This document shows, in pieces, positions 80-22,502 of a stretch of DNA of 24,988 nt (positions are counted from its first letter, which is position 1; every line of letters begins with the position of its first letter). Source of the DNA: a virus; the IMG/VR virus record IMGVR_UViG_3300027881_000070, positions 1 to 24,988 of that record, one strand, 5' to 3'. The notes beneath the pieces are model-generated. The model ran no database searches and was not told the origin of the DNA. It worked only from the letters and a program-made list of their open reading frames with translations. The position numbers were made by a program, and so were the translations under genes.

Positions 80-472
80 CTAGAGCTTACGCCTCCAGAT
101 ACGAATGCCGAAGGTGGCAGCATAGATCATGAGGATCAGCCATCTGTACCAGTCTGGCGTCGTTTCAAGTATCTTGAAACCCTCAAGGACATACGGAGCA
201 AGGTGCGGGATGAAAACGAAAACCATAGGGACAGTGAGGACGAGGATTACTAGCTCGTCCTTCCACCCACTATTGCGGATAGATTCTATCTCCCATTCGT
301 GATCCCTACCCTCAGACTCACTTGCGCGTTTGGATTTAGCTTCCTCATACGCTCGCTTGCCTCTGAGAACTTCTAGCTCTACTTCCTGTTTGAGCTTGTT
401 TTTCTCTATGTAATAATCCGCCACCTTTGGCGCGACCTTACCTAATAGTGCCCCTACTATTGAACTCCACAT
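80..472 (-). CDS. Holin-like protein of the 3TM (GTA holin) type
   Basis: A 130-residue protein with an amphipathic, charged N-terminal half and hydrophobic segments in the C-terminal half. After a Gly-Trp-Lys-Asp-Glu start there is a membrane segment (about residues 74-97), a short linker containing TTPDWYRW, and a second segment (about 108-124) ending in a basic Arg-Arg-Lys tail. The N-terminal stretch (about 5-20) could be a third, weak segment. This layout resembles the 3TM holin family known from gene transfer agents and marine phages, which would open the inner membrane for the endolysin. A GGGAG ribosome binding site lies about 7 bases before the ATG. It is the last gene before a terminator, in the same transcript as the endolysin. 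Family membership is inferred from pattern only; a small structural membrane protein is the alternative. Confidence 0.65.
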   Translation of the reverse strand: MWSSIVGALLGKVAPKVADYYIEKNKLKQEVELEVLRGKRAYEEAKSKRASESEGRDHEWEIESIRNSGWKDELVILVLTVPMVFVFIPHLAPYVLEGFKILETTPDWYRWLILMIYAATFGIRIWRRKL

Positions 473-1402: not shown

Positions 1403-1678
1403 TTATCTAATTATCTGAATGCTCTCGACGCACATATAGGAATCGTACGTTCTTGGGAGACAGTCCTTGCTGTATCGGCAACCCATAGGAGGACTCCCGA
1501 ACCACTTAATATGTATCATGCCCCCATTAGCTTCACACGATTGCCGGTATGCTATGAAGGCATCGCGGTGTTCCAGTGCGCGAGCTTCACGTTCGTGCTT
1601 GCGCTCTATCCTCTCGGCGGGAGTAAGTGTGGTGCAGCCCATCAGCAATAGACAAGCTATAACAATGAGTGCCTTCAT
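1403..1678 (-). CDS. Small outer-membrane-type lipoprotein, possible o-spanin
   Basis: A 91-residue protein with a type II signal peptide: Met-Lys, a hydrophobic core, then the lipobox LMGC with Cys15 as the lipidation site. The mature part begins with a charged helical stretch (about 22-45), followed by a region with several Cys residues (49, 67, 73, 83) that could form disulfides. The ATG overlaps the stop of the HslV-like gene by 4 bases (ATGA) and has a strong GGAGGA ribosome binding site. Lysis-cassette lipoproteins are often outer-membrane spanins of the Rz1 type. Rz1 proteins are usually Pro-rich, and this one is not, so the spanin role is only a possibility. The lipoprotein assignment itself is firm. 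Confidence 0.75.
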   Translation of the reverse strand: MKALIVIACLLLMGCTTLTPAERIERKHEREARALEHRDAFIAYRQSCEANGGMIHIKWFGSPPMGCRYSKDCLPRTYDSYMCVESIQIIR

Positions 1679-2157
1679 ACTTCCTCCACTTGTAGGGGTC
1701 GTCCCATCTTGGACGAGTAGGTGTCTCTCTTACAGGCTATCTCCACAGCTTCCTTCGCTGTAGCTCCTGCATCCATAGCGCCTAACGCTATGTTCCCACC
1801 ACTACCGAGAGCGTGGTACTGGACGGGTATTTCCTCTGGGGTAAAGAACCGATCAACGATCCATATGGTCTTATCAGGCTTCATGAGAAGGCACCAGAAG
1901 TCTTCCCCATCATCCTCAAGCCCTAGTATCTGATTGTCGTCCATGACCTCAGAGAAGTCGTGAGACTCATGCACTGAGTACCACTCCATGAAGATGAAGC
2001 ATGGCCCCGGCGCACCTATATGCCCCACAAGAGTTCCCTTGTTGGGGCCTTTTTTTATCCTTTGTATCTTGACGCATGGTGTAGCGATGTTATCTATGGT
2101 GTTCTGATTGTCCGACACCATGACACCCGCCCTTTTATCGGCTACAATAGTAGTCAT
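1675..2157 (-). CDS. HslV-like proteasome-type Ntn hydrolase
   Basis: A 160-residue protein that follows the pattern of HslV, the peptidase of the bacterial HslUV ATP-dependent protease. It begins Met-Thr-Thr-Ile-Val-Ala, as HslV does, so removal of Met1 would expose the catalytic Thr2. An Asp (Asp16, in VSDNQNT) and a Lys (Lys30, in VKIQRI) fall where HslV has its conserved active-site Asp and Lys. The C-terminal part has the hallmark ALGSGGNIALGAM (116-128) followed by an Ala-rich helix ATAKEAVEIACKRD. Usual HslV length is about 175, so this is slightly short. There is no HslU-type ATPase in the window. It sits one base after the zincin-like gene and overlaps the lipoprotein gene. The fold call is strong; its target, and whether it assembles into rings or uses host HslU, is unknown. 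Confidence 0.85.
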   Translation of the reverse strand: MTTIVADKRAGVMVSDNQNTIDNIATPCVKIQRIKKGPNKGTLVGHIGAPGPCFIFMEWYSVHESHDFSEVMDDNQILGLEDDGEDFWCLLMKPDKTIWIVDRFFTPEEIPVQYHALGSGGNIALGAMDAGATAKEAVEIACKRDTYSSKMGRPLQVEEV

Positions 2158-2158
2158 G

Positions 2159-2662
2159 TCAGTGCCCCATTATTTGAGTTTGCTGCTTTGCGTCACAGTC
2201 ATACAGACGCTTCCATTCCTCCAGAGGTCGTTTGAATGATTGTACGGCGTTTAGGTAGTCAACGTACTCGTTAGTAAGTTTCCATGCCTCTCGTTCTATC
2301 ACACAGTCCAACAGCCGTGACGAGTTGTCGTCGAACGCACCATTAAAGTACTGTAGGTAATGTATTTGTTCGTGGAAGATAGTCAACCACATCTGGGTAC
2401 CCTTGAGGGGTGTGTCTAGCCAGACGATAGGTGAGCCACCCCAATACGCGCCACGTACTCGAATGTCTCCGAGCATACCCGAACGTCTTACTGTTGGTGT
2501 CTCTAGCCCCTTGCAGTTGTACTTGGACAACTCACAAGCAGCCTTCCATGTTGCCCTAGCCACACGCTGATCTTGAGCCCATTGGGACGCTACGGTGGTA
2601 GCACCCGTCAGGAAGATCGCAGCGACTAACGGCAGTATGAACCGTAGTCTTGGTAGTCTCAT
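2159..2662 (-). CDS. Signal-anchored HExxH zinc metallopeptidase-like protein
   Basis: A 167-residue protein starting with basic residues and a hydrophobic segment (about 8-26), a signal anchor or cleavable signal peptide. The rest should be periplasmic. Residues 97-101 read HEQIH, the HExxH zinc site of metallopeptidases, within a hydrophobic helix TIFHEQIHYLQY. Glu123 or Glu125, in CVIEREAW 22-24 residues later, is a good candidate third zinc ligand, as in gluzincin-type enzymes. Cys residues at 43, 50, 120 and 156 could form disulfides. The ATG overlaps the endolysin stop by 4 bases, so the two are translationally coupled. Its position where spanins are often found suggests a lysis or envelope-processing role (inference). 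I do not recognise a specific family. Confidence 0.65.
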   Translation of the reverse strand: MRLPRLRFILPLVAAIFLTGATTVASQWAQDQRVARATWKAACELSKYNCKGLETPTVRRSGMLGDIRVRGAYWGGSPIVWLDTPLKGTQMWLTIFHEQIHYLQYFNGAFDDNSSRLLDCVIEREAWKLTNEYVDYLNAVQSFKRPLEEWKRLYDCDAKQQTQIMGH

Positions 2663-3060
2663 TTAATTTCCCAGTGAAACAAATCATTGAAATTCTGATC
2701 GGTCAGGTCTCCATCCCTGTCCCAATCGCCTCCCCATCTTAGAGTTAGCCCTAGTTCCTCTGCTATCGCGTAGCCACGCCCAGCTAAGTAGCCGAGTGAG
2801 CCCCACAACTTGTTGTCTTTCAGCGGTCGGGGGAACGGCTGTAAGTCTACAGCCAAAGATGGTTTGTGATTATGTTTACTGTCTGGGTATTTGAGTTTAC
2901 TGTATCCGTTTTCAAAGAGTCCGTTCTGTGTCTCTCTATCTCTGTATCCGTACAAAAGACTTATGTCTGCTACGTCTCGGAGCATACGATCACACCACTC
3001 CTGAAGACGCGGGTCTAAGGTGTTATATACCTTCTGTGATTTAGTTCCCCAACGCCGCAT
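2659..3060 (-). CDS. Endolysin, M15-family L-alanyl-D-glutamate/D-Ala-D-Ala type peptidase
   Basis: A 133-residue protein matching the VanY/T5-endolysin group (peptidase M15), which cuts peptide bonds in peptidoglycan. Residues 61-72 have Ser-Lys-His-Asn followed by Pro-Ser and Ala-Val-Asp, the first zinc-binding motif, with His63 (or His65) and Asp72 as ligands. The C-terminus has WGGDWDRDGD (109-118) and FHWEI (128-132), where His129 is the third ligand and Glu131 the likely catalytic acid. The opening about loops 35-46 (LLYGYRDRETQN) also fits the family. No signal peptide is present, so export would need a holin. Start ATG has AGGAG 8 bases upstream and lies 20 bases inside the end of the preceding gene. 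Length is close to that of the T5 enzyme. Confidence 0.9.
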   Translation of the reverse strand: MRRWGTKSQKVYNTLDPRLQEWCDRMLRDVADISLLYGYRDRETQNGLFENGYSKLKYPDSKHNHKPSLAVDLQPFPRPLKDNKLWGSLGYLAGRGYAIAEELGLTLRWGGDWDRDGDLTDQNFNDLFHWEIK

Positions 3061-6585: not shown

Positions 6586-7925
6586 TAGAGTAACTCCCTA
6601 TAGTTGACTGCGAGATAGCCGCTGGCGTCCATCACGATTGCATTTGGTACAATCTTGGCGACCTCCTGTGCTATAACACCGTATGTTGGTTGGTCTTTGA
6701 TACCAAGCTCTATGGCTTTATCGTTCCAGTCCCACTCGTACCAGCCAAGGTCACCCAAGCTACCTATGCGCTTGATGTTTTCCTTGAGCCGTTCATCAGA
6801 GAAGGGGAGGAAGCTGAGAGCTGTCTTAGCAAGGCCACCGAGGAAGCTACCTCCGCCCCCACCAGAAGCTCCTGCAAGACCCTGTGCGCTCTGTCCAGCA
6901 GCCGAGATACGGTCTGCCTCAGCCTGTCGTAAGCCGAGCATCGTATCTGATGTGAGTGCATCACGCTGTCTGAACTGGTCGAATGCGCTGAGTCCAAGTC
7001 CCACGTTCTGGCCGAAGGCTTGCTGACCTTGACCAAAGAGCCCTGCCTGTGCATCCAAGAACCCTTGTGCGCCCTGCCTACCAAAGAGACCGGACTGTAG
7101 GTTCTGTCCAAACTGTTGGCCCTCAAAGCCACCAGCCTGACCCATGAATCCTTGCGCCTGTCCAAGCTGACCTAAGCCTAGTTGGCTAAGTATCTGCTGC
7201 TGTTGCTGTCCTATGCCAAAGGCTTGACTTTGTAGTCCCAAGTCCTGTTGTGCTACTGCATCTAGGAACTGTCGGGACTCACCAGCACCGCCCGTAGAGC
7301 CGAGTCGGCCCTGAGCGAACTGTCTATTCTGTAGTCTATTGATAGCATTGTCTAGGAGACCAGAACCCTGTACCTCATTACGGAGCGTACCAAGTGCTTG
7401 ACTTCTAAGTGCATCCTGATTGCCTGCGGCTGCTAGATTAGCAAAGCCTGCCTGTCCTGCCTGTCCACCAAACTGCTGTGCCTGTCCTGCTAGGTTGCCC
7501 AGCTGGCCGAAAGCCGTGGGGTTGATACCACCACTCTGCGCTGCTAGGTTACCGAGGGCTGGCCCAAACTGATTCTGGAACTGGCCGAAGTCAAAGCCCT
7601 GACCACCAAACAAAGCTGCGCCACCACCAGCTAAGAGATTCTGTATCCCCTGCTGTGGGCCAGCTAACTGTGCGGTGGAGCCTGTACCAGATATGTTACC
7701 AGACAAGCCACCAAAGTTGAAGCCTTGGTCTTGGAAGCCTGCTCTAGCACCGATATCATCTATGCGGCCTTGATGCTCTCTGATATCCAGGAAGTCCCCG
7801 ACTCCACCAATAAGATCACTTAGACCACCGCCCTGACCAAAGAAACCACCTGTGCCACCACCGCCAAAGACGGAGCCTCCAGAGGGTGCCAATACGCCAC
7901 CTGTACCACCAAATCGTCCGGGCAT
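6585..7925 (-). CDS. Gly/Gln-rich virion protein with C-terminal Peptidase S74-type domain
   Basis: A 446-residue protein of two parts. Residues 1-350 are low complexity, rich in Gly, Gln, Phe and Ala, with many short FGQ/GQ/GLG units and no charged clusters. Residues about 370-446 match the intramolecular chaperone/autoprotease domain of phage tailspikes (Peptidase S74). The signature SDERLKENI starts at Ser376, with Lys381 five residues later, the same spacing as the Ser-Lys dyad of endosialidase tailspikes. GVIAQEV (about 416-422) and a final GYLAVNYRELL complete the pattern. In known cases this domain trimerises the protein and cleaves itself off just before the Ser. Here it sits on a protein that looks nothing like a beta-helix spike and lies beside ejection-type genes. 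Start and stop are in TAATG overlaps with both neighbours. Confidence 0.75.
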   Translation of the reverse strand: MPGRFGGTGGVLAPSGGSVFGGGGTGGFFGQGGGLSDLIGGVGDFLDIREHQGRIDDIGARAGFQDQGFNFGGLSGNISGTGSTAQLAGPQQGIQNLLAGGGAALFGGQGFDFGQFQNQFGPALGNLAAQSGGINPTAFGQLGNLAGQAQQFGGQAGQAGFANLAAAGNQDALRSQALGTLRNEVQGSGLLDNAINRLQNRQFAQGRLGSTGGAGESRQFLDAVAQQDLGLQSQAFGIGQQQQQILSQLGLGQLGQAQGFMGQAGGFEGQQFGQNLQSGLFGRQGAQGFLDAQAGLFGQGQQAFGQNVGLGLSAFDQFRQRDALTSDTMLGLRQAEADRISAAGQSAQGLAGASGGGGGSFLGGLAKTALSFLPFSDERLKENIKRIGSLGDLGWYEWDWNDKAIELGIKDQPTYGVIAQEVAKIVPNAIVMDASGYLAVNYRELL

Positions 7926-8113
7926 TATTCTTTCTCCTCTTTCTTACGCTCTCGGCGTAACTTGTTGGCTCTCTCCCATGTATACCATGCGGTGAGTCCA
8001 CCAATTACAATAGTAGCAATCAATGCCGCTGCGTCCGATGCTATCTCTAGCCAACCGGCCCCTACAACGCTCCCAGTCATTAAGACTCCGACAGCGACTA
8101 ACTTGTCTTGCAT
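7925..8113 (-). CDS. Small membrane protein, holin candidate
   Basis: A 62-residue protein beginning MQDKLVAVG. It has two hydrophobic segments (about 5-20 and 26-42) and a strongly charged C-terminus with alternating Arg, Lys and Glu, the usual shape of a small class II holin. I chose the ATG at 8113 because an AAAGGA ribosome binding site lies 6 bases upstream; two in-frame ATGs further upstream (8143, 8119) have worse spacing. The gene ends in a TAATG overlap with the S74-domain gene. It lies among tail genes, far from the endolysin, so it could instead be a virion membrane protein. A second holin-like gene lies at 80-472. Confidence 0.6.
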   Translation of the reverse strand: MQDKLVAVGVLMTGSVVGAGWLEIASDAAALIATIVIGGLTAWYTWERANKLRRERKKEEKE

Positions 8114-8129
8114 AATCATTCCTTTACCT

Positions 8130-8609
8130 TTATGATATATCATCTTGACATATGAGTGTTATATCGGCATTGCCGTATTCCACTTGTGAAACTTTATGGC
8201 GGAACTTCAGGTTCACAACCCAGTTAGTATCTGCAGCAGTACTGTCATCAATTTTCCAGTTACGGTTTGCGTCCGCCGTGCCACAGTCTATCCATGTATC
8301 CATTGTGCCAGACCGAGTTCCGTCTCCCGTATAAGATTGTTCCGCAGCAAATACTTCAAATAGATTAGCATAGACCGTGTCAGTGCCACCCTTCAACCAT
8401 GCCTGAGATTGCTGGCCGGTGCCTGTGGTAGATGTACCATTAGCGGCCAACATCAATACACCATCGTTCTGGACGGTAACTTGAGCCTCAAAGGTCCACG
8501 GAGCACCGTCGTTATCATGTCCTATAACGGTATCCGCAGCTATGTTTATACGTTCGCCTTCATGCTCGCGTCCACCAAACATTGGGGTTCGCATCCAAGG
8601 GATAAACAT
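8130..8609 (-). CDS. Uncharacterised probable tail-associated protein
   Basis: A 159-residue soluble protein. The start MFIPWMRTP is chosen because it lies in a TAATG overlap with the preceding gene; the longer form from 8636 adds nine residues without a ribosome binding site. The sequence is rich in Thr, Asp, Ala and Gly, with likely beta strands (WTFEAQVTVQNDGVLML, WVVNLKFRHKVSQVEYG) and Cys near the C-terminus. It has no membrane segment and no motif I recognise. Coupling to the fibre-like gene upstream suggests a fibre accessory or virion protein, which remains inference. Confidence 0.6.
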   Translation of the reverse strand: MFIPWMRTPMFGGREHEGERINIAADTVIGHDNDGAPWTFEAQVTVQNDGVLMLAANGTSTTGTGQQSQAWLKGGTDTVYANLFEVFAAEQSYTGDGTRSGTMDTWIDCGTADANRNWKIDDSTAADTNWVVNLKFRHKVSQVEYGNADITLICQDDIS

Positions 8610-21225: not shown

Positions 21226-21407
21226 TATGTGCTACTCTCTAGTATGAGGACATCACCTGTACCGCTTTCCAAAAGCAGTTGATCTCCAGTTTCAAGTAAA
21301 AGGTTATCGACATTGAAGCCTGCATCGTTTAAGATCAGACGATAGCGTTGGTTGACAGTCCTGCTGCCACGCCGTCTAGGTTGCTTCAGTCTTGGTTTGC
21401 TAGCCAC
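21225..21407 (-). CDS. 60-residue protein with LLLE repeats, GTG start
   Basis: I chose the GTG at 21407, because AGGAG lies 5 bases upstream; the ATG at 21452 has no ribosome binding site. The product is 60 residues: a basic, Pro/Arg-rich N-terminus (residues 2-20), then three short units, NLLLETGDQ, LLLESGTGDV and LILESST. Such short Leu-Leu-Glu repeats are seen in small proteins near phage structural genes and may form stacked beta turns. The start lies 22 bases inside the ParB-like gene, and the stop forms a TAATG overlap with the fibre-like gene. Function is not known; translational coupling suggests a partner of the fibre-like protein. Confidence 0.6.
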   Translation of the reverse strand: MASKPRLKQPRRRGSRTVNQRYRLILNDAGFNVDNLLLETGDQLLLESGTGDVLILESST

Positions 21408-21919
21408 GGAAACTCCTGTGCTATGAACTCTGGTTGTTCCCCGTCGAGCCATGCGAATCCAGCATCGTCGTGATCTGCTCTTCGAGCTCGTTCGAGGTTA
21501 TAGTGGTAATCTGCTCCGTACTCTCCAAACTCGAAGGCACGGGGCGGATCGGTGAAGAAGGTAGACCAGTTGTCGGGTCGCACTTCAGGAGACATTTCGT
21601 AGTCTCCGGTGTAGTCGTTAATGATAGCTGGGATTCTTGCGATTCCCATAGTTCGGCAAGCTTTAAGCCGGCTACCCCCAAAAGTAAGGAAGATTCCTTC
21701 GGGGAGGCTCCAGACAAGTATGGGGTTTCTGACTCCATGCTCTTCGATATCATCGTTGAGAGCTCGTTGGAAACCAGGTTTTGTATGATTAGAGATACTG
21801 TCTCGGTATCTCCAGCCATTGAGGCTAACCGACGATCCACCATATTGCGGATTGCGAATAAGCCGCCCACGTACATCCTCACAAAGAATGTTCTCATACC
21901 GGACACTATACTCGCTCAT
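21386..21919 (-). CDS. ParB/Srx-like domain protein
   Basis: A 177-residue protein with a ParB/sulfiredoxin-type core. Helix and strand DDIEEHGVRNPILVW (57-70) match the conserved start of the domain. GGSRLKACRTMGIARIPAI (81-99) matches its G-x-R-R and LGxxxIP elements, and a C-terminal tail is rich in Asp, Arg and aromatic residues. There is no helix-turn-helix DNA-binding domain as in chromosomal ParB, so a partitioning role is unlikely. ParB-like folds in phages have been linked to nucleotide-modification enzymes and to nucleases. Its ATG lies 14 bases inside the methyltransferase gene, so it is probably translated together with it. Confidence 0.7.
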   Translation of the reverse strand: MSEYSVRYENILCEDVRGRLIRNPQYGGSSVSLNGWRYRDSISNHTKPGFQRALNDDIEEHGVRNPILVWSLPEGIFLTFGGSRLKACRTMGIARIPAIINDYTGDYEMSPEVRPDNWSTFFTDPPRAFEFGEYGADYHYNLERARRADHDDAGFAWLDGEQPEFIAQEFPWLANQD

Positions 21920-22502
21920 GAATCATCATACACCGAGTCTTGGTGCCTTTCTTGCTGCGCTTCTCTCTGTGCTCATATACCAGCTCATACAGACCTAAGT
22001 GCTCTTTGTATGCCTTGCGCCACTCTGAGGGTAACTGCTGAATGAGGTGGAGGTCTTGCCCTTTGTAGGGCCCCTCCCAGAAATTCTTACCTGTAGGGTC
22101 ACAGGCTATGTCGCTGTAGAGTACTTTACCTACGAGCGAAGCCACCAGTTTGAGGGTGTCCCCCAGCCTTTCTGGCTCTATGTGCTCCATCACATCAGTG
22201 TTCGTAACTAGATCAAACTGTCCAGTAGGTATTTCGTCATACGCTGGAATGCCCGGATCGTAGTTAGTCCACTCTATTTCTCTCTGTACTCGTTCTCGTA
22301 CAAAGCTCTCAAGATTCCCTTTTCCTGCTCCGAAGTCAAGGACTGTCTGGATGTAGGGTCTCTCTGTAAGTAATTGTACCACATCCGCTCCAGAGTACCT
22401 TCCTCCGGTGCTTCCCCATTTTGAACCATCATGCTCTTTACGGAGTACATCTTGGTACTCAGCTGAAGGCCCTATAGTATCGCCTGCAAATAGCCGCGCC
22501 AT
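21906..22502 (-). CDS. Class I SAM-dependent methyltransferase
   Basis: A 198-residue protein with the Rossmann-fold signature of class I methyltransferases. Motif I is VLDFGAGKG (54-62), followed by an acidic Asp82 in NYDPG, and motif IV is FDLVTNTDVMEHIEPE (96-111), a type 11/12 pattern. The C-terminal part contains LHLIQQLPSEWRKAY and a basic tail. The substrate cannot be read from the sequence; there is no DPPY or PCQ motif, so an N6-adenine or C5-cytosine DNA methyltransferase is unlikely. A GGGAG ribosome binding site supports the ATG, which lies 44 bases inside the upstream gene. It belongs to an overlapping trio with the GT-like and ParB-like genes. Confidence 0.85.
   Translation of the reverse strand: MARLFAGDTIGPSAEYQDVLRKEHDGSKWGSTGGRYSGADVVQLLTERPYIQTVLDFGAGKGNLESFVRERVQREIEWTNYDPGIPAYDEIPTGQFDLVTNTDVMEHIEPERLGDTLKLVASLVGKVLYSDIACDPTGKNFWEGPYKGQDLHLIQQLPSEWRKAYKEHLGLYELVYEHREKRSKKGTKTRCMMIHERV

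Follow-up and report, generated by a model that had tools for sequence, protein, structure and literature searches.

PPH, which were reported from numerous phages in 2021, are proteins of about 140 residues that occur in tailed phages and in the prophages of their hosts; they keep helices H1, H3 and H4 but lack H2, carry the residues Thr1/Ser1-Asp17-Lys33-Gly47, belong to group I, where they radiate from BPH and lie near HslV, and have no identified co-occurring AAA+ protein (PMC8665760). No unfoldase is known for BPH, whose acidic pore loop is long, whereas in HslV, which is gated by HslU, the pore loop is short (PMC8665760); BPH is described as forming a tetradecameric double ring (PMC5777263, PMC8665760). 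In the proteasome, helices H1 to H4 provide the contacts between subunits, and single subunits are inactive before assembly (PMC8665760). Two further families are relevant here, i.e., connectase, a monomeric proteasome-like ligase with neither H1 nor H2 and with a two-helix insertion between S3 and S4, and RPC, which are related to PPH, carry a C-terminal extension and are listed for Proteobacteria only (PMC8665760). In the literature found, neither an activity nor a function has been shown for any PPH.

Here we analyzed a linear 25-kb phage fragment (24,988 nucleotides of IMG/VR record IMGVR_UViG_3300027881_000070; "the window"), in which a sequence-only reading had proposed an HslV-like proteasome subunit within a lysis block. 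Judged by the PPH features described in PMC8665760, this protein is almost certainly a PPH; the find is thus genuine, but not new.

The PPH gene, its relatives and its predicted fold

The sequence-only reading had given no strand; the PPH reading frame, which begins with ATG, is on the minus strand. With Met counted as residue 1, its product contains Thr2, Thr3, Asp16, Lys30, Gly48, the motif A116-L-G-S-G-G121 (GSGG at 118-121), Asp145 and Ser148; the Thr-Thr pair after Met1, Asp16, Lys30 and ALGSGG had been pointed out before and are all present as written. The putative nucleophile, Thr2 (Thr1 once Met is gone), is encoded by codon 2154-2152. Thr2, Asp16, Lys30 and Gly48 align with HslV T1, D17, K33 and the glycine after these. 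The protein ends 12 residues past Ser148, with no RPC-type C-terminal extension, and its Ser148-Ser149-Lys150 deviates from the usual [TCS]-G-G. No signal peptide was found in it.

A search with the single sequence matched PHROG_1040, "peptidase HslV family", over nearly the full length (E = 1.8e-31). The same sequence matched neither the Pfam proteasome domain nor any other Pfam family, so that its relation to HslV is a distant one, and it scored 14.4 bits (E = 0.023) against the NCBIfam HslV model, for which the cut-off is 137 bits. As a phmmer search of PDB sequences with the single sequence returned only noise, we used a profile built from 59 relatives, which placed BPH first (5ovu; 47 bits, E = 2.4e-11), followed by HslV (41-42 bits, 1e-9) and then by proteasome beta-8 (37 bits, 2.8e-8).

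A tblastn search with the window protein matched 234 phage records with E <= 0.01; relaxing the limit to E <= 10 gave about 600, nearly all of them less than 60% identical to it, with hosts including Escherichia, Salmonella, Vibrio, Caulobacter, Rhizobium, Aeromonas and others; bacterial contigs contributed 21 PPH loci, mostly from Pseudomonas and Burkholderiales. Conservation was assessed among 66 non-redundant relatives (<85% alike) gathered from IMG/VR and from annotated phages, with a median length of 148 aa (sequences were cut at 200 aa). Position 2 is Thr in 59 and Ser in 7 of these, a count that is slightly biased as the choice of start favoured a codon before T, S or C, which leaves the other positions unaffected. 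Asp16, Lys30 and Gly118 occur in 66/66, Gly48 in 63/66, Asp145 in 57/66 and Ser119 in 53/66, while position 148 is Ser, Thr or Cys throughout. The H4 residues A134, A137, V138, E139 and A141 are nearly as conserved as the active site. The sequence-only reading had named homologues lacking the Thr, Asp and Lys residues as evidence that would count against it; instead, Thr/Ser2, Asp16 and Lys30 are invariant. Together with invariant Gly118 and near-invariant Gly48 and Asp145, these residues argue for preserved catalysis, although conservation by itself cannot tell a protease from a ligase or an amidase.

Two further observations were made among the relatives. In the Caulobacter phages C1, RB23, J4 and BL47 (hits H48-H53), tblastn gave four separate PPH-like sites per genome, which may represent multiple copies. 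PPH-like proteins with a long C-terminal extension were seen in Vibrio phage S4-7 (L033, 292 aa) and in nieznany (L032, 230 aa); these possibly resemble the RPC subfamily.

A structure prediction with comparison to HslV had been proposed as a check, and a prediction lacking the Ntn fold had been named as evidence against the reading; the outcome is in its favour. The AlphaFold2 model (monomer; 59 relatives in the alignment) has the Ntn/proteasome fold with high confidence (mean pLDDT 90.6, pTM 0.86), and Foldseek matched it to HslV (best E = 2.6e-9; TM 0.66-0.72 of the query), to yeast beta5 (PRE2; TMq up to 0.77, the top TM-score among the matches listed) and to many phage proteins. The label "HslV-like proteasome subunit" is thus upheld as far as it denotes an Ntn hydrolase with intact catalytic residues, but the protein is a PPH rather than HslV, being devoid of H2 and nearest to BPH by profile.

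In the model, H1 spans residues 50-62, H3 121-129 and H4 134-144, while helix H2 is absent, its place being taken by just a 5-residue low-confidence helix (69-73). The segment from H1 to GSG comprises 70 residues in the window PPH, as compared to a family median of 59.5 and to 75 in HslV. The low-confidence loop at this place (pLDDT about 60-80) contains 10 Asp/Glu and no Lys/Arg among its 25 residues and exceeds the family median length by about 10 residues. From Gly118 to Asp145 (H3-H4), every member has 27 residues, as compared to 36 in HslV. Because H2 is absent and H3-H4, the segment by which rings are joined in the proteasome, is short, PPH probably does not copy the double ring of the HslV type.

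Genes around PPH in the window and in other phages

In the window, PPH is preceded by a gene for a 669-aa protein (a search for relatives of which found none), an M15 endolysin gene and a gene for a predicted exported zincin, and is followed by a gene for a small lipoprotein (Table 1). The neighbours named in the sequence-only reading, a zincin and a lipoprotein in a lysis block, are thereby borne out. The zincin stop codon ends 1 base before the PPH start (TGAcATG) and the lipoprotein start overlaps the PPH stop (ATGA); with gene ends touching in this way, co-translation of zincin, PPH and lipoprotein is likely, and PPH and the lipoprotein may be translationally coupled.

Table 1. Features on the analyzed stretch discussed in the text
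Feature	Coordinates	Strand	Evidence
Small membrane protein, possibly holin-like	80..472	minus	PHROG_2524, unknown function, E = 1.3e-23
Small predicted lipoprotein, 91 aa, lipobox LLMGC	1403..1678	minus	Sequence
PPH-type proteasome homolog, 160 aa	1675..2157	minus	PHROG_1040, alignments, AlphaFold model, Foldseek, profile match to BPH
Acidic low-confidence loop at the place of H2 of HslV, PPH residues 63-87, HESHDFSEVMDDNQILGLEDDGEDF	1897..1971	minus	Model, segment length and charge
Predicted exported zincin-like protein, 167 aa, H97-E-Q-I-H101, hydrophobic N-terminus	2159..2662	minus	Sequence
M15-type endolysin	2659..3060	minus	PHROG_465 endolysin, E = 2.6e-19

The endolysin also matches Peptidase_M15_4, just under the cut-off (E = 7.9e-5). 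The zincin-like protein has a conserved EREA downstream of HExxH; none of the Pfam, PHROGs and NCBIfam families matches it above cut-off, a search of phage records gave no relative, and its AlphaFold model, built from two sequences, is unusable (pLDDT 48). The lipoprotein likewise matches no family above cut-off. Upstream of the terminase block of the window, a ParB-like protein and a SAM methyltransferase (Methyltransf_23) are encoded side by side (21386-22502).

A single relative of the zincin was found (48-49% identical), in the IMG/VR locus L135. The zincin gene follows an M15 endolysin gene in both phages; in L135, this pair is kept and is followed by a small membrane protein gene, with neither PPH nor the lipoprotein. 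A 131-aa gene similar in appearance to that of the holin-like candidate in Table 1 lies after the same block in L135. A further small membrane protein of the window (7925-8143, after the structural genes and upstream of an S74-type gene) has a homolog directly after the L135 zincin (L135:6486-6704), so that the order of these homologs differs between the two phages.

Neighbourhoods of PPH in other phages were sampled from 14 annotated phages, from PHROG neighbour tallies and from a count of membrane segments made with a crude home-made gene caller. The tallies cover the 25 commonest families and hence undercount lysis genes, which is why the annotated phages and the membrane-segment count were used as well. 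In SE2, holin/endolysin follow PPH immediately; in BUCT548, an M15 peptidase and a holin come 1-2 kb after PPH; in Dewey, PPH is 2-4 kb downstream of the lysis cassette; and in phiAH14a, it lies after two genes that we read as holin-like (unannotated or misannotated) and before a PhageMetallopep gene. On the other hand, PPH was also found near head-tail genes (Gungnir39), a helicase gene (3/49), tail genes (IME346), replication or nucleotide-metabolism genes and, in large phages, miscellaneous genes. Proximity to lysis genes is thus a repeated feature, but one of a minority of phages. There is a modest, about twofold, enrichment of small membrane proteins near PPH (34/307 within 3 genes as compared to 26/430 elsewhere; p = 0.02, with loci that are not fully independent).

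In Pseudomonas prophage loci, including L028:6185-6808 and L128:8662-9270, a PhageMetallopep gene (PF18894, E about 1e-42) lies directly downstream of PPH; its product is a second, different putative metallopeptidase adjoining PPH. HExxH proteins were encoded by 8/209 genes within 2 positions of PPH as compared to 5/~800 elsewhere in the same loci, mostly representing one orthologous group. The label "peptidase M48" on phiAH14a gp56 (L028:5099-5422) is a probable misannotation, as this small protein has several hydrophobic segments and no HExxH and appears rather holin-like.

Possible roles of the phage protein

We consider it probable, on balance, that PPH is an active, ATP-independent cytoplasmic threonine peptidase carried as accessory late cargo. 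The host methionine aminopeptidase would remove Met1 and thereby expose the Thr nucleophile; Thr as the second residue permits such removal, and an N-terminal Thr acting with Asp and Lys is established as the nucleophile of the family. Asp16 and Lys30 would assist the Thr, Gly48 would belong to the oxyanion hole, and GSGG, Asp145 and Ser148 would cluster around this site. The enzyme would act in the cytoplasm with no HslU or dedicated AAA+ unfoldase and may cut peptides or poorly folded or exposed protein segments, while the acidic loop at the place of H2 and the pore loop may limit access, as that of BPH is thought to. As an accessory late gene, PPH would be co-expressed with the endolysin and the zincin but stand outside the lysis machinery, and its task may with equal likelihood be the cutting of one specific phage or host protein or general clean-up. 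Since proteasome subunits are inactive when unassembled, PPH may need a ring, the model presented here being that of a monomer.

No AAA_2 domain (HslU/ClpX-type) was found within the window, and no AAA+ match in Pfam among the 27 window proteins scanned; AAA_2 was also absent from 17 related PPH-bearing records, 8 of which are complete phage genomes. These scans agree with the earlier statement that neither HslU nor another AAA ATPase is in the window; an ATPase for the window PPH could lie elsewhere in the genome, beyond the 25-kb fragment. The acidic loop would fit an enzyme free of an unfoldase, as in BPH.

Among the alternatives, a monomeric and highly sequence-specific Ntn enzyme (a peptidase, an amidase or a connectase-like ligase) with a single phage or host target, e.g., in counter-defence, is unlikely, yet it survives best. 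The lack of H2 and the short H3-H4 segment are in its favour, as monomeric connectase provides a precedent for lost contact helices (PMC8665760), and so is the presence or absence of PPH between sister loci, an accessory pattern typical of host-interaction genes. The conservation of H4, nearly equal to that of the active site, could however mean that a subunit interface is preserved, and PPH, unlike connectase, retains H1 and shows no two-helix insertion.

It is quite unlikely that PPH, the zincin and the lipoprotein jointly process a protein of the envelope or of the lysis system when infection ends. The sequence-only reading had suggested such late-stage or envelope-related proteolysis from the coupling of the three genes, and the position of PPH after the endolysin and the zincin, the overlap with the lipoprotein start, the proximity to lysis genes in SE2, phiAH14a, BUCT548 and Dewey, and the nearby small membrane proteins are consistent with it. 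The L135 phage, however, has the endolysin-zincin pair with neither PPH nor the lipoprotein, and most PPH contexts elsewhere are not lysis contexts. Moreover, PPH lacks a signal peptide and depends on the Thr behind Met becoming a free N-terminus, so that it should be cytoplasmic, whereas the zincin and the lipoprotein look exported. A link between PPH and envelope proteolysis is thus not supported beyond gene order in one phage. We regard with equal doubt a virus-specific, ATP-free mini-proteasome that has no classical ring, acts late on one defined phage or host protein and, in this phage and several others, belongs to the lysis/terminase end of the late operon.

That PPH is a true phage HslV, which plugs into host HslU and redirects degradation by HslUV, is improbable to a still greater degree. 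Its likeness to HslV (NCBIfam E = 0.023, a place among the top Foldseek matches and the second rank in the profile search) and the use of the name HslV by phage annotators speak for this explanation, but the NCBIfam score is far under the cut-off (14 vs 137 bits), and the borrowing of host HslU, one of the options in the sequence-only reading, is disfavoured because the H2 and pore-loop region of HslV is missing or replaced in PPH. In addition, PPH phages span many hosts, including an actinobacterium (Microbacterium, phage WaterT), and Actinobacteria are unmarked for HslV in Table 1 of PMC8665760.

A catalytically dead PPH that serves as a decoy, poisoning HslV or some other complex of the host, would agree with the lack of an ATPase partner in the window and the 17 records and with the divergent PPH surface, but is most improbable and was rejected, as Thr/Ser, Asp and Lys are invariant in the 66 relatives, which is unexpected for a decoy. 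A role as capsid maturation protease was also considered and rejected, as the position of PPH varies and WaterT has its own such protease.

Comparison with known proteasome-like systems

Within the proteasome-like family, PPH are the first branch that is truly viral. To this branch, the present work adds a member, from a phage for which the collections searched gave no close relative. It demonstrates the invariance of the active site across a wide PPH sample and removes two tempting stories, i.e., borrowed HslU as the default and a conserved zincin-PPH-lipoprotein unit.

The window protein resembles the described PPH in being phage-borne and small, in lacking H2, in its catalytic residues, and in its affinity to BPH and HslV, and no AAA+ partner was seen in the records scanned; it differs in its length of 160 aa, in a longer acidic loop and in being flanked by genes for a predicted exported zincin and for a small lipoprotein. 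The name of PHROG_1040 is in use in phage annotation, but it is a loose label, since H2 is lacking and no HslU was found in the window or in the 17 related records. Among solved structures, BPH (PDB 5ovu, 5ovs) is the best profile match and has an acidic loop at the same site (PMC8665760); the BPH chain, on the other hand, has about 200 aa and includes H2, while the window PPH has no H2 and a shorter acidic loop.

With HslV (ClpQ), the window PPH shares the fold, Thr1/Asp17/Lys33 and GSGG, but HslV, which works with HslU, possesses H2 and an H3-H4 segment longer by nine residues. HslV also has Cys at the place of the PPH family's Asp145, and E. coli HslV has Cys and Thr at the places of 145 and 148; the E. 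coli sequence compared agrees with PDB HslV chains over its full length. Proteasome beta subunits (yeast beta5) have an Asp..Ser motif after H4, as PPH does, and we take Asp145 and Ser148 to be the counterparts of proteasome Asp166 and Ser169; unlike these subunits, the window PPH has no propeptide, is much smaller and has no alpha-type partner. From connectase, it differs in the presence of H1 and in the absence of the two-helix insertion between S3 and S4.
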